From an uncultured Carboxylicivirga sp. (lineage in GTDB: Bacteria > Bacteroidota > Bacteroidia > Bacteroidales > Marinilabiliaceae): a DNA stretch of 64,000 nucleotides. The notes under the pieces were generated by a model. It worked only from the letters and a program-made list of their open reading frames with translations. It had not been told where the DNA came from and searched no databases. Location: NCBI RefSeq assembly GCF_963668385.1, contig NZ_OY764327.1, positions 4,994,501-5,058,500 on the forward strand, given 5' to 3'. Position numbers and translations under genes: made by a program. Positions 27,226-43,063 of the stretch are shown in pieces (the first letter of the stretch is position 1; each line of letters starts with the position of its first letter).

Positions 27226-27702
27226 CTATAAATATTCTTCAATAATCCCTTTTACATCTTCGGGCGACACACGGCCATAAACACGCTCGCCAACCGTTAC
27301 CACAGGGGCTAAACCACAGGCTCCTACACAACGCAAGCAACTAATCGAGAATTTACCATCGTCGGTAGTCTCTCCTACTTTTACATCCAGGTGCTTTTTA
27401 AACTCATCCAGCACCTTTTCGGCTCCCCGCACATAACAAGCCGTTCCCATACATACAGATATGGGATGCTTTCCTTTGGGAATCATCGAAAAAAATGAAT
27501 AGAAAGTAACCACACCATAAACGTGAGCCACCGAAACATTTAATTCCTGGGCCACCAGTTCCTGCACCTCGGCAGGCAGGTAACCAAACATTTCCTGTGC
27601 TGCATGAAGTACATTAATCAGTTCTCCCCCATCGTTATCGAACTTTTTACACACTTCCTTGAGTTCATCAACTTTTGCAGCGGGTAATTTTATATTAGCC
27701 AT
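27226..27702 (-). CDS. hndA: NAD-linked [FeFe]-hydrogenase, NuoE-like subunit
   Basis: A 158-residue thioredoxin-fold [2Fe-2S] protein of the NuoE/HndA/HydC family. The four ligands are in CMGTAC (about 85-90) and CLRCVGAC (about 121-128, the CXXXC pair). N-terminal helices carry ELNVSVAHVYGVVTFYSFF, typical for NuoE. It passes electrons between the flavin subunit and the hydrogenase. Last gene of the first catalytic module, 73 bp after hndD. Confidence 0.9.
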   Translation of the reverse strand: MANIKLPAAKVDELKEVCKKFDNDGGELINVLHAAQEMFGYLPAEVQELVAQELNVSVAHVYGVVTFYSFFSMIPKGKHPISVCMGTACYVRGAEKVLDEFKKHLDVKVGETTDDGKFSISCLRCVGACGLAPVVTVGERVYGRVSPEDVKGIIEEYL

Positions 27703-27775
27703 GATATTTTTTTAGACATAAGATTAAAGTATCAAGTATCAAGACATTTTTTCATCCTGATACTTTGTACTTATA

Positions 27776-29542
27776 TTAAATTTCAACCTTCTTTTTCTTG
27801 TCGTAATAATGCGTGTGCAGCAATTCATGCGATTTATGTCCGCAAGGCTCACCTAAAAATTCGGCATACAGTTTTTGTATAAACGGATTCTCGTGCGATT
27901 TACGCAAAGCTTTACCCTTATCCTCTTCGTAGATGGCTTTCTGACGTTTTTTCAGAATTTCCATATTACCATGATGATAAGGTTGACCGCCTCCACCAAT
28001 ACATCCACCGGGACAAGCCATTATTTCAATGGCATGAAACTGCGATTTACCAGCTTTGATGTCTTCGAGCAACTTACGCGCATTACCCAAACCGTGTGCA
28101 ATACCAATATTAATTGGAAGACCATCGAAATCAATCGTAGCCGAACGAATGCCTTCCATTCCGCGCAACTCTTCAAAATCGAGTCGTTCCAGAGGCTTTT
28201 TAGTATGCACCTCGTAAGCGGTACGAACGGCCGCTTCGATCACCCCACCGGTTGTACCAAAAATAACTGCAGCTCCGGTCGATTCTCCCAATGGCTTATC
28301 GAAATCATCTTCCTCCAGCGCTTCAAAGTTAAGGTTAGCATTGCGTATCATCTGTGCCAACTCACGGGTTGAAATGGAAATATTCACATCAGGATCACCA
28401 TTCACTGCAAATTCATCCCGCGAACACTCATATTTTTTAGCCAGACAAGGCATCACTGAAACCACCACTACATCTTCACGTTTTTCTTTAAGCTGATCAG
28501 CAAAATATGTTTTAGCAATGGCACCAAACATCTGCTGAGGCGATTTTGCCGTTGATGGTATGTCAATCATTTCAGGAAACTGATGCTCGAAGAAATTAAC
28601 CCATCCCGGACAACAAGAAGTCAGAATTGGCAATTTCACCTCTTTATCTCCAGCCAGGTGTTTGCTTAAACGATCGAGCAATTCGGTGCCTTCTTCCATT
28701 ATGGTAAGGTCGGCAGCAAAGTCGGTATCAAATACATAATCAAAACCCAGCTTTCGCAATGCTGAAACCATTTTACCGGTGACCAAAGTGCCGGGATCCA
28801 TTCCAAATTCTTCACCTAAAGCAGCTCTTACTGCAGGTGCCGTTTGAACAATCACTTTCTTCTTCGGATTTACAATGGCATCCATCACTTTCGATGAACT
28901 GTCGCGCTCGGTTAACGCCCCGGTAGGACAAACCGCCACACATTGCCCGCAGAAAGTACAGATTGAATGATCGAGATCCATCTCGAAGGCCGGTGCTACA
29001 ACCGATTCGAATCCCCGATTGATAGCTGATAACACACCCACAGTCTGAACTTCGTTACAAGCGGTTTCGCATCGGCGACACATAATACACTTATCCATAT
29101 CGCGAATGATAGCCGGAGATTCATCACCTTTGTAGGTACTTTTAGCCCCTTGATATTTTATCTCACGAATACCTAGTTTCTGAGCCAGACTCTGCAACTC
29201 ACAATCTCCCGATTTAGCACATACCAAACAATCGAAAGGGTGATCGGAAAGAATGAGTTCCATTACAGTTCGACGAGCATTTACTACTCTTACTGAGTGT
29301 GTATGTACCGCCATTCCTTCGGTACATTCCGTTTTACAGGCAGGTGCCAGGTTACGACGTCCTTCGACCTCAACAACACAAACACGGCAACCTCCCGGCT
29401 TATTTTCAAAATTGGTGTCTTCCAGCTTCATATAACAAAGCGAAGGAATATCAACCCCAATTGTTTTTGCTGCTTCTAAGAGGGTAGTACCTTTTTCGAC
29501 TACTACCTTTTTATTATCTATGGTTAATTGAACGATATCCAT
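27776..29542 (-). CDS. hndD: NAD-linked [FeFe]-hydrogenase catalytic subunit (canonical H-cluster)
   Basis: A 588-residue group A [FeFe]-hydrogenase. From the N-terminus: [2Fe-2S] domain (Cys36, 52, 55, 69, with a few extra residues between the first two), His-ligated [4Fe-4S] (HPFDCLVCAKSGDC), two [4Fe-4S] (CIMCRRCETAC, CTFCGQCVAVC), then the H-cluster domain: L1 TSCCPGW (Cys310, Cys311), L2 MPCLAKKYE (Cys366), L3 MACPGGCIGGGGQP (Cys510, Cys514), and a C-terminal small-subunit-like part. All ligands and the proton-relay Cys310 are present. With HndA-C it should couple H2 to NAD(P)H and, if bifurcating, ferredoxin. Cytoplasmic. Confidence 0.93.
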   Translation of the reverse strand: MDIVQLTIDNKKVVVEKGTTLLEAAKTIGVDIPSLCYMKLEDTNFENKPGGCRVCVVEVEGRRNLAPACKTECTEGMAVHTHSVRVVNARRTVMELILSDHPFDCLVCAKSGDCELQSLAQKLGIREIKYQGAKSTYKGDESPAIIRDMDKCIMCRRCETACNEVQTVGVLSAINRGFESVVAPAFEMDLDHSICTFCGQCVAVCPTGALTERDSSSKVMDAIVNPKKKVIVQTAPAVRAALGEEFGMDPGTLVTGKMVSALRKLGFDYVFDTDFAADLTIMEEGTELLDRLSKHLAGDKEVKLPILTSCCPGWVNFFEHQFPEMIDIPSTAKSPQQMFGAIAKTYFADQLKEKREDVVVVSVMPCLAKKYECSRDEFAVNGDPDVNISISTRELAQMIRNANLNFEALEEDDFDKPLGESTGAAVIFGTTGGVIEAAVRTAYEVHTKKPLERLDFEELRGMEGIRSATIDFDGLPINIGIAHGLGNARKLLEDIKAGKSQFHAIEIMACPGGCIGGGGQPYHHGNMEILKKRQKAIYEEDKGKALRKSHENPFIQKLYAEFLGEPCGHKSHELLHTHYYDKKKKVEI

Positions 29543-29578
29543 TTCTTATCTTTTTCTGTTCACAAATACTGAAGTAAA

Positions 29579-31372
29579 TTACTGGATGCTGATAGCTCCG
29601 AACTTACATTTTTCATAACACGCTCCACATTTAATACATGTTTGAGGGTTGATAACATGCGGTGCTTTTTTATCACCTGCAATGGCATCAACCGGACAAA
29701 CACGTGAACATAGCGTACAGCCCACACATTTTTCTTCGTCAATAACATATTGCATCAACGATTTACATTGACCAGCCGGACATTTGTCATATTTAACGTG
29801 AGCTTCGTATTCATCCCAGAAATTATCCAGCGTAGATAAAACCGGATTAGGAGAAGTCTGTCCCAAACCACAAAGCGAAGTATCTTTTATTACATTACTC
29901 AAATTACGCAGGTTGGTTAAATCCTCTTCGGTGCCTTTGCCTTCGGTTATTTTATGAAGCATTTCGTACAATCGCTTATTGCCGATACGACAAGGAGCAC
30001 ATTTACCACACGATTCTTCCACCGTAAAGTCGAGATAGAATTTTGCCATGGACACCATACAATCGTCTTCGTCCATTACAATCATACCACCCGAACCCAT
30101 CATCGAACCGCTTGCAATCAGGTTATCGTAATCGATAGGTATATCCAGATGTTTCTCGGTCAAACATCCACCTGACGGCCCACCTGTTTGAACCGCTTTA
30201 AATTTCTTACCATCCTTGATACCTCCGCCAATATCAAAAATAACTTCGCGAAGAGTAGTACCCATCGGTACTTCAATCAACCCAACATTATTAACCTTAC
30301 CTGCCAAAGCAAATACCTTTGTTCCCTTACTTTTATCGGTTCCGATACTACTGAACCATTCAGCACCTTTTAAAAGGATGACAGGAATATTGGCATAAGT
30401 TTCAACGTTATTTACATTAGTAGGCTTGCCTTTATATCCGCTAACCGATGGAAAAGGAGGTTTAACAGTTGGTTCACCTCGTAAGCCTTCCATCGAGTGA
30501 ATCAGTGATGTTTCTTCGCCACACACAAATGCTCCTGCACCGAAACGCAGTTCCACATCGAAATCAAAACCGGTACCAAAAATATCTTTCCCCAGCAATC
30601 CATATTCACGCGCCTGCTCAATAGCTATTTTAAGGCGCGATATGGCCAAGGGATATTCAGCCCGAATATATATCAAACCATGATTGGCACCTGTACAATA
30701 AGCGTTGATGGCCATGGCTTCTATCACCGAATGAGGATCGCCTTCTAAAATAGATCGATCCATAAAAGCCCCTGGGTCACCTTCATCGGCATTACAAACC
30801 ACATATTTCTGATCAGCTTCCACTTTTCGGGTGATATCCCACTTTAATCCGGTTGGGAAACCTCCTCCTCCTCTGCCTCGCAAACCTGAATCCATGATGG
30901 TTTGAATCACTTCTTCGGGTTTCTTTTCGGTAAGAGCCATACCCAAAGCAGCATATCCATCGCGGGCAATGTATTCATCAATATTCTCGGGATTGATAAA
31001 ACCACAGTTACGCAAGGCAATGCGAATCTGCTTTTTATAGAAGCCCATTTTTTTCGATTCGGTAACATGTTTCTTTGTTTCCGGATCGGTGTATAATAAA
31101 CGTTCAACAGGGCGTCCCTTAACCAAATGCTCTTTAACTATTTCTTCTGCATCTTTGGGCGATACATGAACATAGAACGTGTTATCGGGAACCATTTTTA
31201 CCACAGGACCTTTTTCGCAAAAGCCAAAACATCCTGTTCGTACTACCTGAACATCCTGATCCAAACCATTTTCTTCAATGAATCGGTTCAGGCTTTCAAC
31301 TATTTCTTCTCCTTGTGATGCGCGACAACCAGTACCGCCACACACAAGCACATGATTCTTATATTTTGCCAT
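29579..31372 (-). CDS. hndC: NAD-linked [FeFe]-hydrogenase, NuoF-like flavin subunit
   Basis: A 597-residue HndC/HydB protein in three parts: an N-terminal thioredoxin-like [2Fe-2S] domain (CGGTGC about 11-16 and CFGFC about 48-52), the NuoF core with NADH/FMN motifs (GRGGGGFPTGLKW, NADEGDPGAF, GAFVCGEETSL) and [4Fe-4S] ESCGKCAPCRIG, and two C-terminal [4Fe-4S] centres (CVGCTLCSRVCP, CIKCGACYEKC). This full domain set matches bifurcating HydB subunits such as those of Thermotoga. It binds NAD(H) and FMN and is where bifurcation would occur. Confidence 0.92.
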   Translation of the reverse strand: MAKYKNHVLVCGGTGCRASQGEEIVESLNRFIEENGLDQDVQVVRTGCFGFCEKGPVVKMVPDNTFYVHVSPKDAEEIVKEHLVKGRPVERLLYTDPETKKHVTESKKMGFYKKQIRIALRNCGFINPENIDEYIARDGYAALGMALTEKKPEEVIQTIMDSGLRGRGGGGFPTGLKWDITRKVEADQKYVVCNADEGDPGAFMDRSILEGDPHSVIEAMAINAYCTGANHGLIYIRAEYPLAISRLKIAIEQAREYGLLGKDIFGTGFDFDVELRFGAGAFVCGEETSLIHSMEGLRGEPTVKPPFPSVSGYKGKPTNVNNVETYANIPVILLKGAEWFSSIGTDKSKGTKVFALAGKVNNVGLIEVPMGTTLREVIFDIGGGIKDGKKFKAVQTGGPSGGCLTEKHLDIPIDYDNLIASGSMMGSGGMIVMDEDDCMVSMAKFYLDFTVEESCGKCAPCRIGNKRLYEMLHKITEGKGTEEDLTNLRNLSNVIKDTSLCGLGQTSPNPVLSTLDNFWDEYEAHVKYDKCPAGQCKSLMQYVIDEEKCVGCTLCSRVCPVDAIAGDKKAPHVINPQTCIKCGACYEKCKFGAISIQ

Positions 31373-31384
31373 AGTGTACTTTAC

Positions 31385-31792
31385 CTAGTTGTTATCTTTG
31401 TTGTTTACTGTCTCGTAGTTTACGGGTATCACACCATCTACCAACTCACCCCGAATAATATATTTCGAGATTATTTCATTGGCCTTTTTCGTATCAACAT
31501 AACCAAAAACAACAGGATTACTGTTTGGTAATTTAACCTCTATGGTTGGCTCGGCATAGCAATAGCCCATGCAACCCGTTTGAGTCACAACCGCATCAAT
31601 AGCTTGTCGATCCAGTTCATCAATCATATAGCTCATTATTTCTTTGGCACCCGAAGCAATACCACAGGTTGCCATCGAAACTTTCACCTGAACAATTTTA
31701 TCAGGATGATCGCTTTTTTCTCGCAGCTGGACTTTGTTTGCCATCTCTTCTTTCATTTTCCGAAGATCGGCCAGGGATTTTACTTTAGTCAT
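31385..31792 (-). CDS. hndB: HndB-like [2Fe-2S] ferredoxin subunit
   Basis: A 135-residue protein: MTKVKSLADLRKMKEE start, then a thioredoxin-like ferredoxin domain with Cys in SMATCGIASGAK and QTGCMGYCYAEP. It matches HndB of NADP-reducing hydrogenases and HydD of clostridial clusters. First gene of the catalytic module hndB-hndC-hndD-hndA. I use the ATG at 31792; the six extra upstream codons would start at a TTG. Stop is 12 bp before the hndC start. An imperfect palindrome shared with the other hydrogenase module lies 100 bp upstream. Confidence 0.87.
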   Translation of the reverse strand: MTKVKSLADLRKMKEEMANKVQLREKSDHPDKIVQVKVSMATCGIASGAKEIMSYMIDELDRQAIDAVVTQTGCMGYCYAEPTIEVKLPNSNPVVFGYVDTKKANEIISKYIIRGELVDGVIPVNYETVNNKDNN

Positions 31793-31891
31793 AGCAATCG
31801 GATATTTCAATATTAGACTGTTAGATAAATAGATAATTAGAATTTAGACTAATTTACGAAGCGCTTAAAAGTATTCACTTTAAGTCACTCT

Positions 31892-31985: not shown

Positions 31986-32528
31986 TTAATAGCTTGCTTT
32001 TATTTCTTTTAGATTTTCGCCAATCATTTGTTTTAAAAAACTTGTTACCTGTGGCATACGGATATCCATATCACCCAGTATTTCTTTTACTTCTCTACTA
32101 TCCAATTCAAATTTTTCTTCCTCGGTTTGATAGGTGAAGACCATATCTGTTTGAGGATTTCCGGTTATTAGCATTGCAATCGTTGAAGGTAAATCACCCA
32201 TAGGTGGACGATCGATATGATTCAAACCAAAAACGGCTTTTACAACGGTTCCTTTGCCCAATTCTGATGTAACAGTAAGGCTTCCGCCTGTTAACTCAGC
32301 ATTTTGTATAAACAGCGGTATGCCCAGTCCTACCTTGCGGGTGGTGCGAGATGTAAAAAATGGATCGGTTACTTTCTTAACGGTTTCAGCATCCATACCG
32401 GTGCCATTATCCTCAAAAGTAAACGTGAGCCATTCACCTTTCTCTTCAATGGAAAGATGAATCAAATTAGCCTGAGCCCTTACCGAGTTCTGAACAATAT
32501 CGGTGATATGCATCGAAAGATCTCTCAT
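31986..32528 (-). CDS. histidine-kinase-like ATPase (HATPase) of the hydrogenase cluster
   Basis: A 180-residue GHKL ATPase without a phosphoacceptor domain: N box DIVQNSVRA (about 10-18), G1 box EDNGTGM (about 39-45), KVGLGIPL (about 65-72), GKGTVVKAVF. The tail (about 125-180) is not recognisable. Similar stand-alone ATPases stand between HydC- and HydD-type genes in clostridial hydrogenase operons. It may act as a kinase on a cluster partner. ATGA overlap (4 bp) with the PHP gene upstream shows translational coupling. Confidence 0.8.
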   Translation of the reverse strand: MRDLSMHITDIVQNSVRAQANLIHLSIEEKGEWLTFTFEDNGTGMDAETVKKVTDPFFTSRTTRKVGLGIPLFIQNAELTGGSLTVTSELGKGTVVKAVFGLNHIDRPPMGDLPSTIAMLITGNPQTDMVFTYQTEEEKFELDSREVKEILGDMDIRMPQVTSFLKQMIGENLKEIKASY

Positions 32529-33268
32529 ACCAGCTCTTTTACTTTTCGTCCGTTAATGTGATGCAATGCCATTCTAACCTCCTGAAATGTACATTCCTCC
32601 ATTTCCAGTACGGTATAGTGTTCTCCAATTGCCTCAGGAAAATGTGCATCGGAAGAACGAAGAATCGTGACCTCGTTTAATTCGGGATGACTCGCCAGCA
32701 TTTGTTCCAAATTAGCTCTGAATGTCATTCCAACGGCATCAGGTTGTAAATCAAAAGGCATAAAACCCAGCTGACTAAATAAACCGAATCTACTTCTGTC
32801 GACATGTGCCGGAATAAACAAACCATCCAAGCTTCTAACTTTAGCTTCGACCTCATCAATACTTTGATTGATGGCATTTATGAGTAATCGGTTTTCCTCA
32901 CCCAGAATATTCTCTTCTTCATCTACCCATACTTGATGACCAAACATCTCAGTGTCGTTAGAAATATCGGGAAGATGTTGACTTAGATATTGCTGAAAAG
33001 TTTCAAGTTTTTCAAATGTTTCAAAGAACGTAAGGCAGTGTACTTCTTCTTTAGTGGTGACTTCGGCTCCGCACAATACAGCGAGTCCCTTTTTATTGGC
33101 CAGTTTCATAACCTCCTTACACTGCAATGTTGAGTTATGATCGGTAATGCCAATTATATCCAATCCTTTCTCCAAAGCCTTCTCCACAATTACTTTCGGA
33201 CTCATCTCCAAACTTCCGCAAGGAGAAAGAACCGTGTGAATATGCAGATCTGCTTTGAACAGTTTCAT
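32525..33268 (-). CDS. PHP-domain phosphoesterase-like protein
   Basis: A 247-residue PHP-domain protein: ADLHIHTVLSPCG (about 6-18), GITDHNS (about 40-46), CGAEVTTKEEVH, PAHVDRSRFG and RSSDAHFPEAIG supply the metal-binding His and Asp residues of a trinuclear phosphoesterase. Substrate unknown. The same type of PHP protein accompanies DRTGG and hydrogenase-like genes in anaerobes. Starts 1 bp after the DRTGG gene and overlaps the HATPase gene, so it is firmly in the operon. Confidence 0.82.
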   Translation of the reverse strand: MKLFKADLHIHTVLSPCGSLEMSPKVIVEKALEKGLDIIGITDHNSTLQCKEVMKLANKKGLAVLCGAEVTTKEEVHCLTFFETFEKLETFQQYLSQHLPDISNDTEMFGHQVWVDEEENILGEENRLLINAINQSIDEVEAKVRSLDGLFIPAHVDRSRFGLFSQLGFMPFDLQPDAVGMTFRANLEQMLASHPELNEVTILRSSDAHFPEAIGEHYTVLEMEECTFQEVRMALHHINGRKVKELV

Positions 33269-33269: not shown

Positions 33270-33605
33270 TCATGGATTCAATATTTTATACAATTGCCCC
33301 GATAATTCAAAGGTTTCCAAATCGGAACTTAACAGTGGAATGCCCTCATCGTTGCTTTGACTGATGGTACTTTCTTCGGCTTCCAATCCCTTAACAATAA
33401 CCACAGCAGCCACTTCTTTAAGCGAAGCCACAGCCATTACATTACGATGGGTTTGCAAAGTAATCCATACCTGTCCTTCGTCGGCATTTCCCATCACATC
33501 ACTTAATAAATCAGAAGTATACCCTCCTGTCACTTCGTTTTGCAAACCTTCTTCGCCCGCAATTACTTTCAGATTCAGTTTTTCAATTATATCAGATACC
33601 TTCAT
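33270..33605 (-). CDS. DRTGG-domain protein (first)
   Basis: A 111-residue DRTGG-domain protein: VTGGYTSDLLSDVMGNADEG, then VWITLQTHRNVMAVASLKEVAAVVIV and EGIPLLSSDLETFELSGQLYKI. DRTGG domains occur beside CBS and phosphotransferase domains and probably bind a nucleotide or phosphorylated ligand. The ATG at 33605 overlaps the end of the sensory hydrogenase gene by 14 bp. Its occurrence twice in this cluster ties it to the regulatory part. Confidence 0.8.
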   Translation of the reverse strand: MKVSDIIEKLNLKVIAGEEGLQNEVTGGYTSDLLSDVMGNADEGQVWITLQTHRNVMAVASLKEVAAVVIVKGLEAEESTISQSNDEGIPLLSSDLETFELSGQLYKILNP

Positions 33606-34974
33606 TTTTTGCTCCTTTTTTATAACAATCCTTATCCAGGCGATCTTTGCCCCAGGTTTTTTCAATTATGCGAAGCGAATGTTGCGGATCAAGCTTTTTA
33701 CTTTTCTCCATCATTCGTTGCATGAAAACGCAATTTGAAAGATGAGCATCTTTCAATACAATATCCTGGGCCAGCCCTTCGCAACTCGGCGATCCGCATG
33801 CACCACAATCAATTCCGGGTAAAAAACACATAATACGACGCACACGTTCCATCTTTTTGATAGCTGTAGCCATATCCGAATCCAAGCCCATCATTGGACG
33901 TGGTTCAATTTTACCCACTCCAATTTTTTCTTTTATATAATTCTGATGATCAAAACTAATGTCATCAATCGTTATCTTTTTCTGTTCGACATGTTCAGCT
34001 CTGGTTTTCATGCGCTCCACCGTCAGAAATCGATTCTCACTCATCAAAACACCTCCAGCACAACTCTGATCGCAAGCACGTAATTCAATAAAATCAACAT
34101 TTATAATTTCATCATTCTCAACCTTATTCAGAAATTTAATTACGTTATGAATCTCGTCAATAGCCAAACATCTCCCCTTCATATGAGCCGATTCTCCCTC
34201 GGTTAAACACCAGGTTAAAGCTTTAGGACTTACATGATCAATCACCTCATTATTAATCCGCTCTTCTGTTCGGCTTCTATTATTTAAAATATGAGATACC
34301 TTGTTGTACAAAAAGTCCATATTAATTACGCCATCAACCGAGGATTCGTCTTCGCCAACCGGCGACTTAACTGTAGCAATTTTAGAGGCGCAAGGGGTAA
34401 CGTAGAATATTCCGATATCTTCGGGCAGTTTACCTTCATCAATGAGCTTTTTTCGATAGTAAATAGCTGTAGCATCCATTGGGGGCTTAATAGGTAAAAT
34501 ATTATTTACCAATCCTGGAAATTTCACCTGTATTAATCGAACAATGGACGGACAAAATGTACTAATGAAAGGTTTTTCCAAATCATCAGCATAAGCGTCC
34601 AGCATGGCCTCGTTAATTACATCAACAGTAGCCTCGGCAGGTACAACATGCGTAAATCCCAAACCATGCAGAATTTCAATAATTTCTTCGGCGCTAATTA
34701 CTTTCGAAAACTGCCCAATAAACACCGATGGTAAGATGGCCACACGATATTTATAGCTTAATATGTCATCAAAATCATCCTGCTCGACATAAATCGCATC
34801 AACCGGACACACTTTCATACACTCGCCGCAATCGATACACCAATCTTTTCGGATGGTAGCCAAACCATCTCGTATACGTATAGCATCAGTTGGGCATTCA
34901 TTCATACAATGAACGCAACCGAAGCACTTTTCGTGATCTACTTTTAGAGCATGATAAAACTGTTGTTCGCTCAT
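33592..34974 (-). CDS. hydrogenase-like sensory protein without PAS (group D-like)
   Basis: A 460-residue [FeFe]-hydrogenase-like protein. Order: two [4Fe-4S] (CFGCVHCMNECP, CIDCGECMKVCP), then a hydrogenase domain with L1 STFCPSIV, L2 TPCASK, L3 RACDQSCAGG, so all four H-cluster ligands are kept while the proton-relay Cys position is Phe, then a Fes-type [4Fe-4S] motif (DCGACGSPSCEG ... C) near the C-terminus. No PAS domain follows. This fits the putatively sensory group C/D hydrogenases rather than a catalytic enzyme. It lies between the RsbW-like ATPase and a DRTGG gene. Partner and signal unknown. Confidence 0.78.
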   Translation of the reverse strand: MSEQQFYHALKVDHEKCFGCVHCMNECPTDAIRIRDGLATIRKDWCIDCGECMKVCPVDAIYVEQDDFDDILSYKYRVAILPSVFIGQFSKVISAEEIIEILHGLGFTHVVPAEATVDVINEAMLDAYADDLEKPFISTFCPSIVRLIQVKFPGLVNNILPIKPPMDATAIYYRKKLIDEGKLPEDIGIFYVTPCASKIATVKSPVGEDESSVDGVINMDFLYNKVSHILNNRSRTEERINNEVIDHVSPKALTWCLTEGESAHMKGRCLAIDEIHNVIKFLNKVENDEIINVDFIELRACDQSCAGGVLMSENRFLTVERMKTRAEHVEQKKITIDDISFDHQNYIKEKIGVGKIEPRPMMGLDSDMATAIKKMERVRRIMCFLPGIDCGACGSPSCEGLAQDIVLKDAHLSNCVFMQRMMEKSKKLDPQHSLRIIEKTWGKDRLDKDCYKKGAKNEGI

Positions 34975-35400: not shown

Positions 35401-35408
35401 AACAATAA

Positions 35409-35768
35409 TCAATAGACAGGATTTAAGCCTGCCTGAAATAACCTTCCTATTGCATTAAACATTGAATATTTACACTCGAGCAATACCATATCGTTTTCTT
35501 TCGCCAATTTCATCATGGCTTCGTTCACATGCTTATCGCGCACAAAAACAATACAATTTACATCCGCCATTTCGGCAGTACGGATCACCTGCATATTGGC
35601 TAAACCAGTAATCAACACCAATTGCTCTGAATCCAGGGTCAAAACATCGCTCATCAGGTCGCTGGCAAATGCGCAACGAATATCTTTGTCGATATCATCT
35701 TCGCCACAAACCACTTTAGCGTCTATTATTTCTGCAATCTCTTTTATTTTCATATTTGGATGAGTCAT
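35409..35768 (-). CDS. DRTGG-domain protein (second)
   Basis: A 119-residue protein similar in build to the DRTGG protein at 33270-33605: KIKEIAEIIDAKVVCG, then DIRCAFASDLMSDVLTL and LVLITGLANMQVIRTAEMADVNCIVFV. Ligand unknown. It opens the second half of the regulatory unit after a 274-bp gap. ATG at 35753 is an alternative start. Confidence 0.72.
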   Translation of the reverse strand: MTHPNMKIKEIAEIIDAKVVCGEDDIDKDIRCAFASDLMSDVLTLDSEQLVLITGLANMQVIRTAEMADVNCIVFVRDKHVNEAMMKLAKENDMVLLECKYSMFNAIGRLFQAGLNPVY

Positions 35769-36042
35769 TTTAAATAATACTGAACCAACCTGACAGATTA
35801 ATGAAAATTTTATGATTCATTAACAAATGAATACTTTTAAATTAAGAAAAAAAAGGACGATTCCTTCTTTTATGTTATATATATCAAATCTAAATTAACA
35901 CTTCGTAAGATCATAGATTATTAGATCATTAGATAATAGATTACACTTTATATCGATCTATGATTCTAACTTCAAATTCTAATCTCATACTCCTGTTTAT
36001 TCATCATTTAAAATCGAATATTGATTCATCCAACAATTGAAG
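35769..36042. other. AT-rich intergenic gap in the regulatory cluster
   Basis: No open frame of note and no clear terminator. The gap splits the regulatory genes into two probable transcripts (39349-36043 and 35768-31986). The word TGAATACTTTTAA occurs here on the plus strand and also, inverted, in the hndB upstream region (31860-31880), which may be chance in AT-rich DNA. Confidence 0.35.
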
Positions 36043-37233
36043 CTACATATATTCTATATCTACTTCTTTCAGAAATTTTTCTTCGAGCAATCGTACTATA
36101 CGTTTCACGACTGTTCTACGTATTTCCAGCTCAACCGGAAGGTTTGGATCCTGATGAGCCACATTAATGCGCGTACCATTGATGATATGTATCTTATCAC
36201 TTTCGAAAAGCATTTTTATAATTTGATCAGCGGGTCCCTTTCCCAACCTCGAATCCATGTTGTATTGCTCGAGTAAACGGGCAACTTTTCCAAGAGTAAG
36301 AATACCTTCTGTTACCAGATTAATCTCCTGCATGAACGAAATAGGTGGGAGATCCGGATCATCTGATTCCAAACCAGCATCGAAACGCAAAGCCAACTCG
36401 CGCGAAATAACTTCAGCTGTTGTTCCGCCTGCAATTATTTTCTTGCCTTTAAAATGTTGCACTTTCAATGCAAAATCAAAATCCTTGTTATCCTCAAATG
36501 GAGGGCCGGTAACCAGTAGTAATTTACGCGGTTCTCTAAAATAAATCACTCCGCACGAAGAATCATCCTTGGGTTTATCTCCATCGTGTAAAAGAGCCAT
36601 ATTCAACACTTTTTGAGCCATTTTACCCGATGATGCAAAAGGTGTATAACGCACCAAACTTTTCACATAGTTTTGCATCGATTCTTCGCCCCACCCAAAA
36701 GGATAAGCTTTGGTGCCCATTCCCGATTGCATAATACCATCTGACCAAAAGAAAATACGATCTTCGCGCTTTGCTATAAACCTACAGATTCGGATTTTCT
36801 TGCCTTTGTTTTGCTCACTTTCTAACTCAATAAAATCCCAACCCGGATCAAACAAATCAGCACCTCTGGTAATTGTACATGTTGGATTATCATATTCAAC
36901 GATGGTTGTTGTTCCATCATCCTCAATATCAATAATGGTGAACGTACTATAACTCACTTTTCTGACACTGCAAACCGGAAGCGTATTCATGATGATTTCA
37001 GCTGTTTTCCGAACTTCGCGATGTTCAACCGTAAAATTCAACGCCATTGATGCCGTTAAAGTAGCCAATACATTTGCTTTAACACCACTCCCCATACCAT
37101 CGGATAATACAGCAATGGTGCGCCCTTCTTCCTTAATACGTTTTGATAGAAAGACATCGCCGCAGATTAATTCTCCAACATGGTTATTCTGACGACATTC
37201 AATATCGATGTAGAATTTATTGTCCTGATTCAT
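36043..37233 (-). CDS. SpoIIE-family PP2C-type phosphatase with extra C-terminal domain
   Basis: A 396-residue protein. The first 230 residues are a SpoIIE/PP2C phosphatase: metal motif LSDGMGSGVKAN (about 43-54), FWSDGIMQSGMG and KPKDDSSCGVIYF (about 217-229). The last 165 residues (from LLLVTGPPFEDNKDF) are not part of the phosphatase and I do not recognise them; GKKIIAGGTTAEVISREL suggests a ligand-binding fold. Overlaps the HydS stop by 17 bp, so the two are coupled. In Clostridia HydS genes also neighbour PP2C phosphatases. It probably dephosphorylates a protein in response to HydS. Confidence 0.85.
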   Translation of the reverse strand: MNQDNKFYIDIECRQNNHVGELICGDVFLSKRIKEEGRTIAVLSDGMGSGVKANVLATLTASMALNFTVEHREVRKTAEIIMNTLPVCSVRKVSYSTFTIIDIEDDGTTTIVEYDNPTCTITRGADLFDPGWDFIELESEQNKGKKIRICRFIAKREDRIFFWSDGIMQSGMGTKAYPFGWGEESMQNYVKSLVRYTPFASSGKMAQKVLNMALLHDGDKPKDDSSCGVIYFREPRKLLLVTGPPFEDNKDFDFALKVQHFKGKKIIAGGTTAEVISRELALRFDAGLESDDPDLPPISFMQEINLVTEGILTLGKVARLLEQYNMDSRLGKGPADQIIKMLFESDKIHIINGTRINVAHQDPNLPVELEIRRTVVKRIVRLLEEKFLKEVDIEYM

Positions 37234-39076
37234 CAGTTTCTCCCAGTTGCTGTGCTTGTATAATACTGTTCAGCGTTTTTTCAGTTTTTGATGCGCTTTC
37301 ACCCAATAAAAAAGCAATTTGCTGAACTGTTTGCAAGTTTTCTTTTATAACATCACGAGCCCGTTTTATTACTTCTTCTTTCCGGACTTCGGGTGTAACC
37401 AAATCGCGTATAATACCGCCAACTACCTTATTTTTTTTGATGGTAAAAACCGAAACATTAAAGATTGATTTTCCATACGTCACATCTCTGTCAAGCACAT
37501 CTTGCCCCGATTGTAAGACCGTTGTAAACACACGATGAAAATCAATCAATTTGGTTAATTCAGCTCCTTTTAATCCCGGAATCAACTCAGAAATGGAACG
37601 GGCATCTTCACCGAGCATCTCGATAAAACGACGATTAGCTTCAATCACTTTCAAATTCTCATCAACCATAACAACTCCCGCCCTTAACTTATTAAGCATT
37701 GCTGTGGTAGTTTCAGCCGCTTCGCGAGCTAATTGTTCTTCTTGTCGGGCTTTTTCCTCACTCTTCAGCAAGGCTTCTTGCGACTGCTTATATTTATCGT
37801 TCGAGGCATTTAACTTGCTTACATACGATCGAAGAGACTTTATGGAATAAGTATAGCATTGCTCAAAATTGGTTAATCCTTGCAGATGAGCGATGGCAAA
37901 ATCACGACATGTTGGATAACCGCAAGCACCGCATCCAAGCTGATCTTCAATACGACCTTTCCCCATTTCAACCAAAACCCGATTCACTTCTTCTTCGCTA
38001 GGTTGATTGAGTCGTAAATCAACTCTCTTAAATGTGCGGGATAAGTCTAAAGGTTTAAACTCTTCAATATCTAATCGCCACTGATACACATCGATGGCTT
38101 TCATGCGTTTATCGACATATTCAATCACTTGCGAACGACGCGTGAATTTTTTATCACTTGGAGTCATTCCCGGAGCCATAGTACAACCTTTACAATAAAA
38201 CAAATCAAGATGTTGATTCATTTCTTTTTCATCTCTGAATTCTTTTATTGATTGTAAAAAATTAGCTCTGCCTTCGGTAATCAGTATATTTCCTTCCAGC
38301 AATCCCTGGTTAATATCAACTGCCTGAAATAGTCCATGAGAAATTGGAAACAAACCACCTTTTCGTCCCAGGGGAGGATCAAATTCGCTGTATTCAACCG
38401 TGTTTTCACCAATTCTGTTTTTCCTGAATAACTTTCTTAATTCAACAAAAGTTAAAACCGCATCAATACCGCCATCTGTTCCGTGAAATCGTCGGGTATC
38501 ATCCTTAGCAGCTGTACAAGCTGTTATGTATACAATTTTAGCATCGTCCCCATATCGTTTATGAACCACTTTACTCATGGCAATATACGGAGGAACAATC
38601 GCTGCCAAATTATCGACTAAATCAGGTTCGTGTCGCTCAATATATTTTACCGTAGCTGGGCACTTACTGGAAATAAAGTGCTTACCCTGAAAATGCTCAA
38701 CTAAATCTTTGTATCGATAGGCAATTAAATCAACAGCAAACGACATTTCAGTAACCAAATCGAAGCCTAAAGCCCTAATCATAGCCACAAACTTCCGATA
38801 ATCGGTTACATCACTAAATTCGCCGGATATAGCTGGATCGCAAATGGCAGCCACTTTCTTTTTCGAACCTAATAACTCCTGAACGACCGTTTGTTCATCA
38901 CGATAACTAATAGCTTCCTGAGCACAAACGGTGACACAATGACCACAACCTATACAGCGATCGGCCAATATATGAGCATGTTTATCTGCAATTTTTATTG
39001 CTTTTGAAGGACATACACGAACGCACGTATAGCTTAAATTACATTTATCTTGATCTGCAACAATAAGTTGAGCCAT
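37217..39076 (-). CDS. hydS: HydS-type sensory [FeFe]-hydrogenase with PAS domain (group C)
   Basis: A 619-residue protein: two [4Fe-4S] (CNLSYTCVRVCP, CIGCGHCVTVC), hydrogenase domain with L1 SSKCPAT (Cys139; Lys in place of the proton-relay Cys), L2 TACTAAKDD, L3 YCKGCTMAPGM (the group C form), a Fes-type [4Fe-4S] motif (LGCGACGYPTCRD, about 403-415), a coiled coil (about 440-490) and a PAS domain (about 490-585, MLNKLRAGVVMVDENLKVIEANRRF split as seen). Group C enzymes are thought to sense H2 with slow turnover. Coupled to the SpoIIE phosphatase downstream, the likely output. Confidence 0.88.
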   Translation of the reverse strand: MAQLIVADQDKCNLSYTCVRVCPSKAIKIADKHAHILADRCIGCGHCVTVCAQEAISYRDEQTVVQELLGSKKKVAAICDPAISGEFSDVTDYRKFVAMIRALGFDLVTEMSFAVDLIAYRYKDLVEHFQGKHFISSKCPATVKYIERHEPDLVDNLAAIVPPYIAMSKVVHKRYGDDAKIVYITACTAAKDDTRRFHGTDGGIDAVLTFVELRKLFRKNRIGENTVEYSEFDPPLGRKGGLFPISHGLFQAVDINQGLLEGNILITEGRANFLQSIKEFRDEKEMNQHLDLFYCKGCTMAPGMTPSDKKFTRRSQVIEYVDKRMKAIDVYQWRLDIEEFKPLDLSRTFKRVDLRLNQPSEEEVNRVLVEMGKGRIEDQLGCGACGYPTCRDFAIAHLQGLTNFEQCYTYSIKSLRSYVSKLNASNDKYKQSQEALLKSEEKARQEEQLAREAAETTTAMLNKLRAGVVMVDENLKVIEANRRFIEMLGEDARSISELIPGLKGAELTKLIDFHRVFTTVLQSGQDVLDRDVTYGKSIFNVSVFTIKKNKVVGGIIRDLVTPEVRKEEVIKRARDVIKENLQTVQQIAFLLGESASKTEKTLNSIIQAQQLGETDESGQ

Positions 39077-39088
39077 AAATTAGTGTTT

Positions 39089-39349
39089 CTATACATTGTT
39101 GTTAATATCAAAATAGTTTCTTAAAATCTCGTACACATTATCAACACTAACCTTTGAATAAAATGTATCATCAATTTTAAGAACCGGACCTTCTTCACAT
39201 TTTCCTCCACACAAATCTCCATGAAAAAACACATCTGCTTCTAGCTTATAATCAGCCAAAAACTTTTTTATTACAGGAAGAACTTCTTTATTTCCCCTTG
39301 AGAAGCAAGAACTTCCTAAACAAATTGTTATCTCACTTTTATGCTCCAT
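39089..39349 (-). CDS. small thioredoxin-like [2Fe-2S] ferredoxin
   Basis: An 86-residue protein: ITICLGSSCFSRGNKEV and FFHGDLCGGKCEEGP carry four Cys in the CX4C ... CX3C pattern of NuoE/HndC N-terminal domains. First gene of the HydS transcript, 12 bp before hydS. It may act as redox partner of HydS, or replace the N-terminal ferredoxin domain missing from the second NuoF-like subunit (41387-42565). Confidence 0.82.
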   Translation of the reverse strand: MEHKSEITICLGSSCFSRGNKEVLPVIKKFLADYKLEADVFFHGDLCGGKCEEGPVLKIDDTFYSKVSVDNVYEILRNYFDINNNV

Positions 39350-39493: not shown

Positions 39494-39578
39494 AGGCGTA
39501 ATTGCTTACCAAACAATTACATTTTGAAACGACCGAGGTATTAACCTGAGTTCGATTTAAATTTTGAGATTCAGATTA

Positions 39579-41369
39579 TTAATAGCGATTTCTTTCGGTA
39601 TAATGCGTATGCAATAATTCATGCGATTTTTTGCCCAATGGTTCCTTCAGAAATTCTTCATAAATATGAACTATTTCAGGATTTTCATGCGATTTCCGAA
39701 TTGGCTTCAAACTATCCTCCCTGTAAATTGCTTCGCTACGTTTTTTGCGAATTGCCGGATTGGTTGGAATAGGTTGCCCTCCACCTCCAAGGCATCCTCC
39801 CGGACAAGCCATTATTTCAATAAAATGATATTGGGCAGTTCCTGCTTTCACAGCCTCCATCACTTTTTTAGCGTTACTTAAACCATGCGCCACGCAAGTT
39901 TTCAATTCAACTCCATCGAGAAAACTCCATTCTGGCAGAGGATTCTCAATTACTAAAGAAGCCTCTTTCACGCTTTCCATTCCCCTCACTGGTGTAATAT
40001 TTAAGCCTTCAAAAGGAACTTCACGACCTGTAACAACTTCGTATGCCGTTCGAAGTGCAGCTTCCATAACACCACCAGAAGCGCCAAAAATGACTGCAGC
40101 ACCAGATGACTCTCCCATAATACTATCATATTCATCTTCGGGCAATGACGGAAAATCGATTCCTGCCTGTTTAATCATCAATGCCAATTCGCGTGTTGTT
40201 AGTACAAAGTCAACATCTTTATATCCACTACTGCGCATTTCGGGGCGATCAGCTTCGTACTTTTTAGCTGTACATGGCATTACAGATACACTCACCATAT
40301 CTTCGGGATCGACATTTATTTTTTTAGCGAAAAATGTTTTGGCCAAAGCCCCAAACATCTGCTGTGGTGATTTAGCTGTCGATACATTATCGAGATATTC
40401 AGGAAAAGTATGTTCGATGAACTTAATCCATCCAGGAGAACATGAAGTAGTCATTGGTATTTTTACAGAAGAATCACCATCAACCAACACTTTTTTTAAG
40501 CGCTGGAGCAATTCATTTCCTTCTTCAATAATGGTTAAATCTGCTGTAAAATCGGTATCTAAAACAGAATCAAAACCTAGCCTACGCAAAGCAGAAACCA
40601 ATCGACCAGTAACAATTTCGCCAGCAGGCATTCCCAATGCCTCACCCAATGCGATACGCACAGCCGGTGCAGTTTGAACTACCACATGCTTTTTATCATT
40701 ATTGAGGGCGGTCCATACCTGTTCTACATATGTTTTTTCGGTTAAGGCGCCTGTTGGGCAACGATTAACACATTGTCCACAATTAGTACAAACCACCTCA
40801 TACATAGGCTTTTCATAGAAGGATGAAATCTTCATATCTTTCCCTTTATACGCCACTGTTAAGGCTCCAATATTTTGCAATTGATCACAGGTACGTACAC
40901 ACCGCTGACAACGAATACACTTGCTGTCATCCTTAATGATAGAAGGAGAAAAATTATCAATGGTTAGCACCTTTAATGGCACCAAATCTATAAAACCATC
41001 CTCTCCAATAATGTATTCTGATGACAATTCCTGCAATTCACACTTCCCATTTTTATAGCAACGTGTACAATCTGCACGATGTTCGCTTACCAGTAATTCA
41101 ATAATCTGTTTGCGTGCTGAGCGAACTTTCAGACTATTGGTTTGAATCTCCATACCTTCGGAAACAGGCATGGCACATGATGGCAATAAACGATCAGAAC
41201 CCACCTGTTCTACCATACAAACACGACAATTTCCTGCCACGCATAAATCTTCGTGATGGCATAAAGTTGGAATACGGATATTTACTCTTCGTGCGGCTTC
41301 AAGTATGGTTGTACCTTCCTCAACACTAACGGCTATATTATCTATTCGAAGATTAACTTTTTCAGACAT
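39579..41369 (-). CDS. second NAD-linked [FeFe]-hydrogenase-type catalytic subunit, TSCSPGW variant
   Basis: A 596-residue paralogue of the subunit at 27776-29542. It has the [2Fe-2S] domain (Cys37, 48, 51 and LPSC), His-ligated [4Fe-4S] (HRADCTRCYKNGKC), two [4Fe-4S] (CIRCQRCVRTC, CTNCGQCVNRC), L2 MPCTAKKYE (Cys366) and L3 MACPGGCLGGGGQP (Cys522, Cys526). L1 reads TSCSPGW: Cys310 (proton-relay position) is kept but position 311, a [4Fe-4S] ligand in characterised enzymes (CpI Cys300), is Ser. The nucleotide sequence (40428-40448) confirms this. The enzyme may still bind the cluster through Ser or Cys310, or have altered activity. Last gene of the module, followed by a terminator. Confidence 0.9.
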   Translation of the reverse strand: MSEKVNLRIDNIAVSVEEGTTILEAARRVNIRIPTLCHHEDLCVAGNCRVCMVEQVGSDRLLPSCAMPVSEGMEIQTNSLKVRSARKQIIELLVSEHRADCTRCYKNGKCELQELSSEYIIGEDGFIDLVPLKVLTIDNFSPSIIKDDSKCIRCQRCVRTCDQLQNIGALTVAYKGKDMKISSFYEKPMYEVVCTNCGQCVNRCPTGALTEKTYVEQVWTALNNDKKHVVVQTAPAVRIALGEALGMPAGEIVTGRLVSALRRLGFDSVLDTDFTADLTIIEEGNELLQRLKKVLVDGDSSVKIPMTTSCSPGWIKFIEHTFPEYLDNVSTAKSPQQMFGALAKTFFAKKINVDPEDMVSVSVMPCTAKKYEADRPEMRSSGYKDVDFVLTTRELALMIKQAGIDFPSLPEDEYDSIMGESSGAAVIFGASGGVMEAALRTAYEVVTGREVPFEGLNITPVRGMESVKEASLVIENPLPEWSFLDGVELKTCVAHGLSNAKKVMEAVKAGTAQYHFIEIMACPGGCLGGGGQPIPTNPAIRKKRSEAIYREDSLKPIRKSHENPEIVHIYEEFLKEPLGKKSHELLHTHYTERNRY

Positions 41370-41386
41370 AATAATTGGTTTTAGGG

Positions 41387-42565
41387 TTAGTAGATCATTT
41401 CTTCTTTGAAATTCTCAACGATTGATGAAAACGAGTTACCAACGGATTGTCCTAATCCGCATTTAGCAGTAACTCTCATCGTTTCGGCTAACTCCATTAA
41501 TTTATCGAGATATGACGAAGGTTTTTCACCTCGTTTAACCGCCTCAATGCCTAACAGAAGTTGTTGAGTTCCTACCCTGCATGGAGTACATTGCCCACAC
41601 GACTCTTCCACAAAGAAATCGAGATAGTTATGCAATACATTGTACATCGAGCGTGATGAATTAAAAATCATCATCGACCCTCCGGTTGGTAATGAAGTTC
41701 CTCTTAACTTTCCCTGATAACCAATTACTGTTTTATCAAACTTTTTGCGCGGCACACAAAAACCGGATGCTCCTCCAACCTGAACAGCTTTGGCATCTCC
41801 ATCACCAAAATCGTCTACAAACTTTTGCAACGACATGCCAAATTCCAACTCATAAATTCCGGGTATTGGAGTATCACCAGAAACAGAAAACACCTTGGAT
41901 CCACGCGAATCCTGAACACCTAAATCTTTGAATTTATCCGCTCCGTATTTAAATATTGAATACGTATGAGCTAATGTTTCCACATTATTAATAACGGTTG
42001 GCTTATTCTTATATCCATGCTGGGTTGGAAATGGAGGTTTATTACGAGGTTCACCCCGTTTGCCTTCCATGCTTTCGAACAAAGCACTCTCTTCGCCACA
42101 TATATAGGCACCACTTCCTAAAAATATCTCTACTTTAAAATCAAAATTTATCTTTTTTAATAACTGATGAAATTCGTTGATTACCTCTAACAATTGAGGT
42201 TTTAGAAATACATATTCGCCACGTAGATAGATGAATCCTTGCTTGGCTCCAATAACGCGAGCACAAACAGCCATTCCTGCCAAAACTTTATGTGGAACCC
42301 GCGATAAAATTTCACGATCTTTAAAAGTTCCGGGTTCACCTTCATCGGCATTACAAATAATGTATTTCTCATCGGTTTCCTCTTCTGAAGCCAGTTTCCA
42401 TTTTAATCCTGTAGGAAATCCGGCTCCTCCCCTACCTTTTAAACCTGAACTAATCAGATTATTAATAACTTCATCATTGTTTTTCTTAAATGTCTTAACT
42501 AAGATATCTTCTATATCGTGTTCGTTTTTGAAGATTAGATCTAAACGCTGCAGATGTTTTTTCAT
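41387..42565 (-). CDS. second NuoF-like flavin subunit, core only
   Basis: A 392-residue NuoF core: GRGGAGFPTGLKW (about 44-56), NADEGEPGTFKDRE, GAYICGEESAL, [4Fe-4S] motif ESCGQCTPCRVG near the end. Compared with the subunit at 29579-31372 it lacks both the N-terminal thioredoxin-like ferredoxin domain and the two C-terminal [4Fe-4S] centres, so its electron path must be simpler. It should oxidise or reduce NAD(P)(H) at FMN. 17 bp separate it from the catalytic gene. Confidence 0.9.
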   Translation of the reverse strand: MKKHLQRLDLIFKNEHDIEDILVKTFKKNNDEVINNLISSGLKGRGGAGFPTGLKWKLASEEETDEKYIICNADEGEPGTFKDREILSRVPHKVLAGMAVCARVIGAKQGFIYLRGEYVFLKPQLLEVINEFHQLLKKINFDFKVEIFLGSGAYICGEESALFESMEGKRGEPRNKPPFPTQHGYKNKPTVINNVETLAHTYSIFKYGADKFKDLGVQDSRGSKVFSVSGDTPIPGIYELEFGMSLQKFVDDFGDGDAKAVQVGGASGFCVPRKKFDKTVIGYQGKLRGTSLPTGGSMMIFNSSRSMYNVLHNYLDFFVEESCGQCTPCRVGTQQLLLGIEAVKRGEKPSSYLDKLMELAETMRVTAKCGLGQSVGNSFSSIVENFKEEMIY

Positions 42566-42583
42566 AACTGAAAGAGTAAATGG

Positions 42584-43063
42584 TTAATTAGCACGTGTTT
42601 CTTTATCACGATACATCATTATAATCTCTCTCACCTTTTCAGGAGTAAGCTCGGTGTAGGGTTTATCATTTATAAGCATAGCCGGACCTTTGTGGCACTG
42701 CCCTAAACAGTTTGTTTCCAATAAAGTGAATTTACCATCGTGGGTAGTCTCACCCAAATTTACTTTCAGAACAGTTTCCAGCTCTTTAATTATTTGATTT
42801 TTACCATGCATCATACAGGTGATGGTTTTACAAACACGGATAACATATTTCCCCAAAGGCTGAGTATTTAAGAAAGAGTAGAATGTGGCAGTTCCGTATA
42901 CCTGAGCTGCTGAAATATTCAATTCTCTTGCTACTTCAATCATCGCATCTTCGGAGATGTGTTGCTCTTTGGTGACAATTCCTTGTAGAATCGGTAACAG
43001 ACTTTCGTGGCTTCGTCCGAATTGATCAGCCAAGTCCTGAACCAGTTGTTTTACTTCTGTCAT
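42584..43063 (-). CDS. second NuoE-like subunit
   Basis: A 159-residue [2Fe-2S] thioredoxin-fold subunit: ELNISAAQVYGTATFYSF, CKTITC and NCLGQCHKGP hold the four ligands (CX4C, CX3C). First gene of the module NuoE-NuoF-HydA. I use the ATG at 43063; the longer frame begins with GTG at 43087. Upstream lie a perfect palindrome (43090-43105) and the motif shared with hndB (43162-43175). Confidence 0.88.
   Translation of the reverse strand: MTEVKQLVQDLADQFGRSHESLLPILQGIVTKEQHISEDAMIEVARELNISAAQVYGTATFYSFLNTQPLGKYVIRVCKTITCMMHGKNQIIKELETVLKVNLGETTHDGKFTLLETNCLGQCHKGPAMLINDKPYTELTPEKVREIIMMYRDKETRAN

Follow-up and report, generated by a model that had tools for sequence, protein, structure and literature searches.

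In a 64,000-nucleotide stretch of the genome of an uncultured Carboxylicivirga sp. (assembly GCF_963668385.1, contig NZ_OY764327.1, positions 4,994,501 to 5,058,500 of the forward strand; hereafter, the window), sixteen co-directional genes run on the minus strand from 43087 to 27226 and encode two catalytic [FeFe] hydrogenases, two hydrogenase-like proteins of sensory type and a set of putative signaling proteins (Table 1). We propose that this cluster brings together four modules—a bifurcating hydrogenase (A1; Trx1-NuoF1-HydA1-NuoE1), a probably NADH-only hydrogenase (A2; NuoE2-NuoF2-HydA2), a HydS–SpoIIE pair (Y; Trx2-HydS-SpoIIE), and a portable control module (X; DRTGG1-RsbW-HydD-DRTGG2-PHP-HATPase)—and give this proposal an even chance. 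Module X we read, with the same even odds, as a phospho-switch that responds to redox state and serves enzymes with a NuoE-Trx-NuoF core, and its distribution suggests that it senses the redox state of the cell rather than H2 alone.

The genome holding the window is a single contig of 6.27 Mb. All sixteen open reading frames (ORFs) were verified, and each product has a Pfam match, in the case of Trx1 only below the cut-off. The ORFs and domain calls of the original prediction, made from the sequence of the window, hold: its two NuoE/NuoF/HydA sets, its PAS-bearing and its PAS-less hydrogenase-like protein, the SpoIIE protein, the RsbW-like ATPase, the second HATPase, the PHP protein and the two DRTGG proteins are all there by Pfam scan, with DRTGG2 just under the DRTGG cut-off. 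The small ferredoxin it named is one of two thioredoxin-like ferredoxins; the right end of the cluster moves to 43087 if a GTG start is used, and hydG lies just outside the range. That nearly all gaps are under 20 bp is true of most, but hid the wider spaces: 229 bp at the A2/Y border, 274 bp at Y/X, 175 bp at X/A1, 73 bp before NuoE1 and one of 36 bp, the remaining genes overlapping or lying at most that far apart. The three largest gaps coincide with the borders of the four modules.

To place the cluster among its relatives, we compared 86 HydD loci (80 named, plus L099, L102, and L114–L117; L and G numbers denote the loci and genomes surveyed in this analysis), of which 71 had enough flanking sequence and 56 had wide flanks. 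The full 16-gene set recurs in the same order in 17 of the 80 named loci, several others being cut by contig or locus ends, so that the arrangement is not a product of chance. Gap lengths in these relatives are estimates from profile alignments; in the 17 complete loci the Y–X gap comes to at least 222 bp, and the other two borders are variable and can be short. Each of the 13 genomes of the same genus has HydD on one contig with a second match of HydS size, some 4 kb away; the sensory and catalytic genes are thus not scattered among close relatives, an outcome that would have spoken against the prediction of a joint cluster.

Beside HydD, DRTGG1 and RsbW were found in all 71 loci with enough flank, DRTGG2 in 69, PHP in 68, HATPase in 66, and the complete set of six in 66. 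The other modules accompany HydD far less regularly: among the 56 wide-flank loci, SpoIIE was near it in 19 and missing from 37, HydA was near it in 38 (not 41, since the profile-scored proteins of L114–L116 are NuoG/HdrA, as seen for L114), and 14 had no NuoF, HydA, HydS or SpoIIE in the locus at all. X stands alone in rumen Bacteroidales, in Parabacteroides distasonis and in others; the P. distasonis copy lies near gyrA, in a record filed as a plasmid, and gyrA suggests chromosomal DNA. Twenty genomes in which X lacked hydrogenase neighbors or the contig was short were searched further: 15 carry a group A HydA elsewhere (one of them partial), and in G049, G051 and G059 only HydD was found. 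X is a portable six-gene module that can stand alone.

X was also found in a second class of Bacteroidota, beside enzymes other than [FeFe] hydrogenases. In a draw of 392 genomes across the phylum, matches in 12 passed 1e-40; five of these were counted as true HydD (>340 bits) and seven were dropped (143–154 bits, larger proteins); four of the five true-HydD genomes lacked HydG. When the class of G231 was sampled more widely, HydD turned up in 20 of 294 genomes, and in none of these 20 did a HydG exceed the cut-off (TIGR03955; the positive control of that search, the genome of the window itself, reached 519.6 bits). Weak matches below the cut-off appeared in two of them (G593, 190 bits; G567, 44 bits), and the control genome likewise holds a 202-bit match of that kind besides HydG. 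In G231, G389 and G239, the three of the 20 that were searched for them, neither a HydF above the cut-off nor a HydE at 1e-20 was found; a PF02906 search of the same three genomes returned HydD as the sole such protein in G231 and G389.

In 15 of the 20 second-class loci, HdrC, HdrB and an N-terminal piece of HdrA are followed on one strand by the X genes and then by NuoE-Trx-NuoF-NuoG/HdrA(C)-MvhD-MvhG, with MvhA also present in 13 of the 15, where the locus reaches far enough. On the contigs of L144, L146 and L148, which end early, the Hdr side and X genes are visible, with HdrB unseen in L148; L152 comes from a single-contig genome, and G562 is a single contig. The [NiFe] subunits were named by likeness, the NCBI Vhu models staying below their cut-offs and PF00374 exceeding its own (L116). 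NCBIfam identifies three proteins of the operon as consecutive pieces of one HdrA2 (positions 1–256 and 262–641 in L114, 647–775 in L115), so that X and NuoEF separate the first piece from the second. The X set is seen complete in 14 of the 20 loci, L144 and L146 being cut. In L155 and L156, X genes adjoin NuoE-NuoF and a NuoG-like protein with a molybdopterin domain; PHP and HATPase are not nearby, DRTGG1 and RsbW form one protein (269 and 288 amino acids, stop to stop), and His replaces H-cluster Cys301 of HydD. X occurs with catalytic partners of three kinds and in genomes where no HydG passes the cut-off; it follows the NuoEF core and not the hydrogenase. About 6 kb upstream of X in L115, another HydG-less case, a STAS-like and a second RsbW-like protein (1535–2331) were noticed by eye.

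These distributions bear on the reading of the original prediction, one integrated H2-sensing circuit in which HydS and HydD act as sensors, the SpoIIE phosphatase and the RsbW kinase work on the same substrate, and the outcome decides which hydrogenase is used. All its parts do lie in one cluster with one order in 17 loci, HydD and the HydS-sized match are linked in every same-genus genome, the window's genome has both HydG (beside the cluster) and HydE (elsewhere), one NuoF is of the bifurcating type and the other is not, so that a choice by H2 pressure would be sensible, and Ruminococcus albus regulates its hydrogenases, with H2 sensing proposed (PMC6776011; papers are cited by PMC identifier, here and below for the excerpts of them available). 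However, SpoIIE accompanies HydS without RsbW in R. albus (L101) and in a second locus of the window's own genome (L105), HydD does without SpoIIE in most loci, and X stands beside non-FeFe enzymes where no HydG passes the cut-off. The sensor set is two separable modules, SpoIIE with HydS and RsbW with DRTGG, HydD and PHP, and sensing of H2 is doubtful for HydD in general; we therefore regard the single circuit as rather unlikely. The linkage of sensory to catalytic genes is the part of it that stands.

By its sequence HydD would be a group D (M2e) “sensory” hydrogenase. It has two N-terminal [4Fe-4S] sites (cysteines in 81 to 84 of 84 aligned rows), the four H-cluster cysteines (the window protein and 84/84 rows), Tyr, Phe or Ala at the position of the proton-relay cysteine (C299) in every row (the criterion of PMC8163306), no PAS domain by Pfam scan, and a C-terminal Cx2Cx4Cx16C (C390, C393, C398, C415) in 83 of 84 rows, with a gap in one. 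The available parts of PMC8163306, PMC13104023 and PMC3561251 describe the same features for TamHydS of Thermoanaerobacter mathranii and the clostridial M2e proteins, along with a shared linkage to a bifurcating hydrogenase and an ATPase or kinase gene. Unlike these, HydD sits in a nearly fixed six-gene module, in Bacteroidota, and also alone or with [NiFe]-Hdr or molybdopterin NuoEF complexes in genomes that are HydG-less by the cut-off; of the two methionine positions, one is Thr/Ser and the other mostly Arg or His, against Ser and Leu in TamHydS as given in the same excerpts. Residue 299 in window numbering, a methionine position framing the diiron site, is Arg in 81 of 84 rows; in the second class it is mostly His, with Asn or Thr in four and Arg in one.

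Given the presence of HydG and HydE, an assembled H-cluster and activation of H2 are possible for the HydD of the window's genome. Since X occurs in genomes without HydG over the cut-off, HydD probably does not everywhere sense H2 at a complete H-cluster, and the simplest signal common to all X would probably be the NADH/ferredoxin redox state or the state of HydD's own clusters. Cys20 of HydD is present in 81/81 rows outside the [NiFe]/Hdr type and in 2/20 rows of the second class; it tracks the partner enzyme and not HydG, because the rows of several genomes without a HydG match (L046, L059, L061, L072, L117) retain it.

The remaining proteins of X include a probable protein kinase. The ATP-site residues of RsbW are invariant in 19/19 rows, its best solved match is SpoIIAB, and it keeps intact what we take to be the N, G1 and G2 boxes of an RsbW/SpoIIAB-type kinase. 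Ser40 of DRTGG1, in the first turn of a helix, is likewise invariant in 19/19 rows, and the fusion in L155 and L156 argues that DRTGG1 is a direct partner of RsbW. A generic DRTGG origin of the SD-L-SDV motif was rejected, AF1212 in the profile alignment lacking it. Foldseek and VIA-align searches with DRTGG1 led to DRTGG domains and to the N-terminal domains of HPr kinase and Mur ligase; no STAS-type structure was among the matches listed, which excludes nothing. The residues HxH, E, H and DxH of PHP are conserved to at least 97% across 33 non-redundant rows. Classical partner switching combines a SpoIIAB/RsbW kinase, a STAS antagonist and a PP2C phosphatase. X resembles it in the SpoIIAB-like RsbW and, in the window, in the SpoIIE-family phosphatase next door, but differs in that no STAS domain was matched at E 0.001 in any of the 16 cluster proteins, the cluster has no sigma factor, and DRTGG is the constant neighbor and, in two loci, the fusion partner.

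In our reading of X as a redox-responsive phospho-switch, HydD would report the state of its Fe-S clusters: H2 where a full H-cluster can form, otherwise the ferredoxin/NADH redox state. The signal would pass to the SpoIIAB-like kinase RsbW, which would bind and probably phosphorylate DRTGG1, perhaps at Ser40, so that DRTGG would occupy the position that classical partner switching gives to the STAS antagonist. As SpoIIE is missing from most X loci, the standing phosphatase is more likely PHP, and the 180-residue GHKL ATPase is likely a second effector. The output would probably fall directly on the enzyme complex, because the Pfam scan found neither a DNA-binding domain nor a sigma factor in the X proteins.

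The same lack of a DNA-binding domain, together with the position of X inside structural operons, would also suit a module for assembly or repair of NuoEF complexes, in which GHKL ATPases would serve as chaperones and HydD would be an Fe-S scaffold; the AlphaFold2 model of the 180-residue ATPase (predicted local distance difference test score 88.6, GHKL fold) matches MutL-type and histidine-kinase folds about equally well. Against such a role, RsbW is closest to the SpoIIAB kinase, X occurs in 14 of the 56 wide-flank loci without NuoF, HydA, HydS or SpoIIE, and bifurcating complexes have been produced without X-type genes, which leaves it improbable to our minds. Slightly less probable still is that HydD is an extra electron-carrying subunit of bifurcating complexes, regulated by the kinase-like genes as part of the enzyme: its four [4Fe-4S]-type sites are conserved in nearly all rows and in most loci it is encoded in cis with NuoEF complexes, but the solved bifurcating hydrogenases (7t2r, 7q4v, 7p5h, 8a6t) have, to our knowledge, no HydD-like subunit, its matches in the PDB (best 60 of 126) cover ferredoxin-like or hydrogenase stretches and never the whole length, and it is linked to RsbW and DRTGG1 in 71/71 loci and to hydrogenase genes only partly.

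Several points weigh against X as a redox-responsive phospho-switch. In L143 and L145, HydD and HATPase are kept and DRTGG1, RsbW and PHP are missing (in L143 also DRTGG2), so the kinase pair is not a constant requirement. The four H-cluster cysteines of HydD are retained in 18 of the 20 HydG-less genomes, which would be odd if the diiron site were never built. Among locus-derived genomes, which may be incomplete, HydG was over the cut-off in 42 of 49 and not in seven, and six genomes (G239, G396, G453, G454, G455, G463) hold a group A HydA, yet neither HydG nor HydF passes the cut-off there and HydE does not reach 1e-20; here the absence of maturases may reflect missed or missing genes, divergent maturases or another route of maturation. 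All loci were found through HydD itself, so that an X without HydD would be missed, and only one Firmicute HydD locus (L099) entered the comparison. Finally, we infer the signal, the phosphotransfer and the output of X from the observed gene content, modularity, range of partners, lack of an above-cut-off HydG in 20 genomes, fusion and residue conservation. L143 (8626–11534) and L145 (8376–11516), the loci without DRTGG1, RsbW and PHP, belong to one genus, g241, in which L144 keeps these genes.

What was known before concerns the Y pair and the kinase genes beside clostridial group D: group D (M2e) genes lie near kinases and bifurcating hydrogenases (PMC3561251, PMC8163306). Module X appears to be new: among the best matches in open-licence literature, nothing describes the six genes as a module, their pairing with [NiFe]-Hdr or molybdopterin complexes, or a fusion of DRTGG1 with RsbW. 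Among the matches listed from the same literature, one paper, on the genetics of Desulfovibrio vulgaris, came up for the DRTGG domain together with hydrogenase and one for Carboxylicivirga together with hydrogenase; none of the best 20 of 119 in a further listing contained DRTGG. How group D sensory hydrogenases relay their signal is described as an open question in the available parts of PMC8163306 and PMC13104023; X names constant partners of such a sensor (an RsbW-like kinase, two DRTGG proteins, PHP and a GHKL ATPase) and offers a testable contact backed by a fusion. More tentatively, the group D “sensory hydrogenase” may for much of its distribution be an Fe-S redox sensor and not a hydrogenase, serving a general control module of NuoEF-type electron-bifurcating complexes ([FeFe], [NiFe]-Hdr and molybdopterin) through a new partner switch with DRTGG in place of STAS, and that H2 sensing at a complete H-cluster is the special case. 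Genomes that lack a HydG over the cut-off and pair X with [NiFe]-Hdr or molybdopterin enzymes provide a natural experiment on the need for the diiron site and, as X also occurs in rumen Bacteroidales and Parabacteroides, it bears on hydrogen and NADH balance in gut and rumen.

Module Y is a known group C HydS–phosphatase pair. HydS has the four H-cluster cysteines in 24/24 aligned rows, and its gene overlaps that of SpoIIE by 17 bp, which gives the combination of H-domain, PAS domain and adjacent Ser/Thr phosphatase gene that defines group C3, phosphatase-linked according to HydDB as excerpted. The thioredoxin-like ferredoxin, the PAS-bearing HydS and the overlapping phosphatase gene are those of R. 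albus and of the Thermoanaerobacterium hfs type, as far as covered by the excerpts of PMC6776011, PMC11837493 (which describes the hfs operon) and PMC5037454, and the order Trx, HydS, SpoIIE is that annotated in R. albus L101. The R. albus cluster is reported to be down-regulated 111-fold in co-culture (PMC6776011). Unlike the R. albus/hfs type, the window pair sits between a probably NADH-type hydrogenase and X, and the hydrogenase resembling R. albus HydA2 (489 amino acids, judged by eye) lies not by Y but in the second sensory locus of the genome (L105 10584–14999, at 2.07 Mb of C1), with HydS2 and SpoIIE. Y moves as a unit, since SpoIIE, HydS and Trx2 are together on the strand opposite X in L046 and L059. 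The L105 set is adjoined by a PAS-AAA-HTH-like regulator and a kinase/response-regulator pair, both named by eye.

The two catalytic sets of the original prediction exist but are unlike. NuoF1 (597 amino acids) has the N-terminal Trx and C-terminal 2x[4Fe-4S] domains that mark the HydB subunit of bifurcating HydABC, by Pfam and by alignment to 7t2r_B over its full length, whereas NuoF2 (392 amino acids) has the core only and aligns to residues 151–523 of that 597-residue bifurcating subunit. According to the available parts of PMC9304861, non-bifurcating homologues (Syntrophomonas wolfei is named) are without the extra clusters; because NuoF2 lacks the extra domains, A2 is by this criterion probably an NADH-dependent, ferredoxin-independent hydrogenase. 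Among the Bfu family treated there (FeFe-Bfu, NiFe-Bfu), A1 corresponds to a full NuoE-NuoF-HydA with the extra NuoF domains and the [NiFe]/Hdr operons found here share the NuoE-Trx-NuoF core, A2 differing by the missing extra domains of its NuoF; the same excerpts name neither an X-type regulator module nor an Mvh-Hdr-NuoEF operon. Turning to the choice between the two enzymes, one looks bifurcating and the other NADH-only, so that H2-driven switching between A1 and A2 would make thermodynamic sense: a bifurcating hydrogenase tolerates more H2, and an NADH-only enzyme requires very low H2. The L1 motif of HydA1 is TSCCP[AG]W in 46/47 relatives and that of HydA2 is TSCSPGW in 22/22; the closest solved chains to HydA2 are 8a6t_A and 7q4v_A. 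Loss of an H-cluster ligand as a special feature of HydA2 was rejected, Acetobacterium woodii HydA1 (7q4v) sharing TSCSPGW.

The suggestion that the cluster was acquired from Firmicutes was not borne out. In a midpoint-rooted HydD tree, the Bacteroidales form one clade (80 rows, support 100/100), and the [NiFe]-type rows form a separate clade (100/97) that joins the single Firmicute row where long branches meet. HydD identity falls from 71–85% within the genus to 56–70% in the family and 42–51% in the order (where true HydD was found), reaching down to 40% in other named Bacteroidales; among named relatives, a Marinilabiliaceae bacterium (85%) and Carboxylicivirga linearis (83%) come nearest. 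The G+C content of the cluster (0.397) is near that of its flanks (0.376 and 0.372), which together with the single Bacteroidales clade leaves a recent gain from Firmicutes without support. An older transfer fits the tree, with its one long-branched Firmicute row, as well as its absence does. The L099 locus of that Firmicute includes the HATPase, but within a divergent hydrogenase operon.

In the gap before X, the –7-box-like ATTTAGATTTG of the window recurs in some form in 16 of 21 relatives. A TGATN4ATCA palindrome, which we take to be of FNR type, lies 225–246 bp before DRTGG1 in 14 of 21 relatives (the gap in L019–L039 and L087), against a background of 73 occurrences in 1.52 Mb of all loci; its distance to the –7-like box is about 109 bp (121 in L032), and the window has the box and not the palindrome. 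Two simple patterns revealed no Rex-like site in three window gaps.

Table 1 Features of the hydrogenase cluster and its surroundings (window positions).
Feature	Position	Strand	Module	Evidence or remark
NuoE2, [2Fe-2S] thioredoxin-like subunit	42584..43087	-	A2	PF01257 2.1e-47
NuoF2, short FMN/NADH subunit	41387..42565	-	A2	PF01512, PF10589 only
HydA2, catalytic group A [FeFe] hydrogenase, L1 motif TSCSPGW	39579..41369	-	A2	PF02906 6.7e-95
Trx2, small [2Fe-2S] ferredoxin	39089..39349	-	Y	PF01257 4.2e-9
HydS, group C putative sensory hydrogenase with PAS	37217..39076	-	Y	PF02906, PF04060, PF13188
SpoIIE-family phosphatase	36043..37233	-	Y	PF07228 5.7e-6
Y/X gap, 274 bp	35769..36042	-		–7-box-like ATTTAGATTTG 127 bp before DRTGG1
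DRTGG1, candidate phosphorylatable (Ser40) partner of RsbW	35409..35768	-	X	
RsbW/SpoIIAB-like ATPase, probable protein kinase	34984..35412	-	X	PF13581 1.9e-12; SpoIIAB profile match 7.6e-11
HydD, group D-type hydrogenase-like Fe-S protein, no PAS	33592..34974	-	X	PF02906 6.3e-22, PF04060 5.7e-11
DRTGG2	33270..33605	-	X	Longer ORF 33270-33665: PF02603 2.7e-7, PF07085 2.4e-5 (just under cut-off); alignment
PHP phosphoesterase	32525..33268	-	X	PF02811 1.4e-11
GHKL ATPase (HATPase), 180 aa	31986..32528	-	X	PF02518 2.5e-15
Trx1, HndB-like small ferredoxin, thioredoxin-like	31385..31810	-	A1	PF01257 8e-4 (below cut-off); beside NuoF1 in relatives
NuoF1, full-length bifurcating-type HydB/BfuB	29579..31372	-	A1	7t2r_B 1-594 E 1.9e-259; 7q4v_B 5.2e-258
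HydA1, catalytic group A [FeFe] hydrogenase, TSCCPGW	27776..29542	-	A1	PF02906 3.2e-95
NuoE1	27226..27702	-	A1	PF01257 3e-51
HydG, H-cluster maturase, just downstream of cluster	23839..25272	-		TIGR03955 519.6 bits at G000:C1:5018342-5019727

Between 23000 and 44000, no known RNA or riboswitch reached gathering scores. The cluster is flanked by genes for a DUF2089 zinc-ribbon/HTH protein (26400–26672) and a Schlafen AlbA_2 protein (43327–44007).

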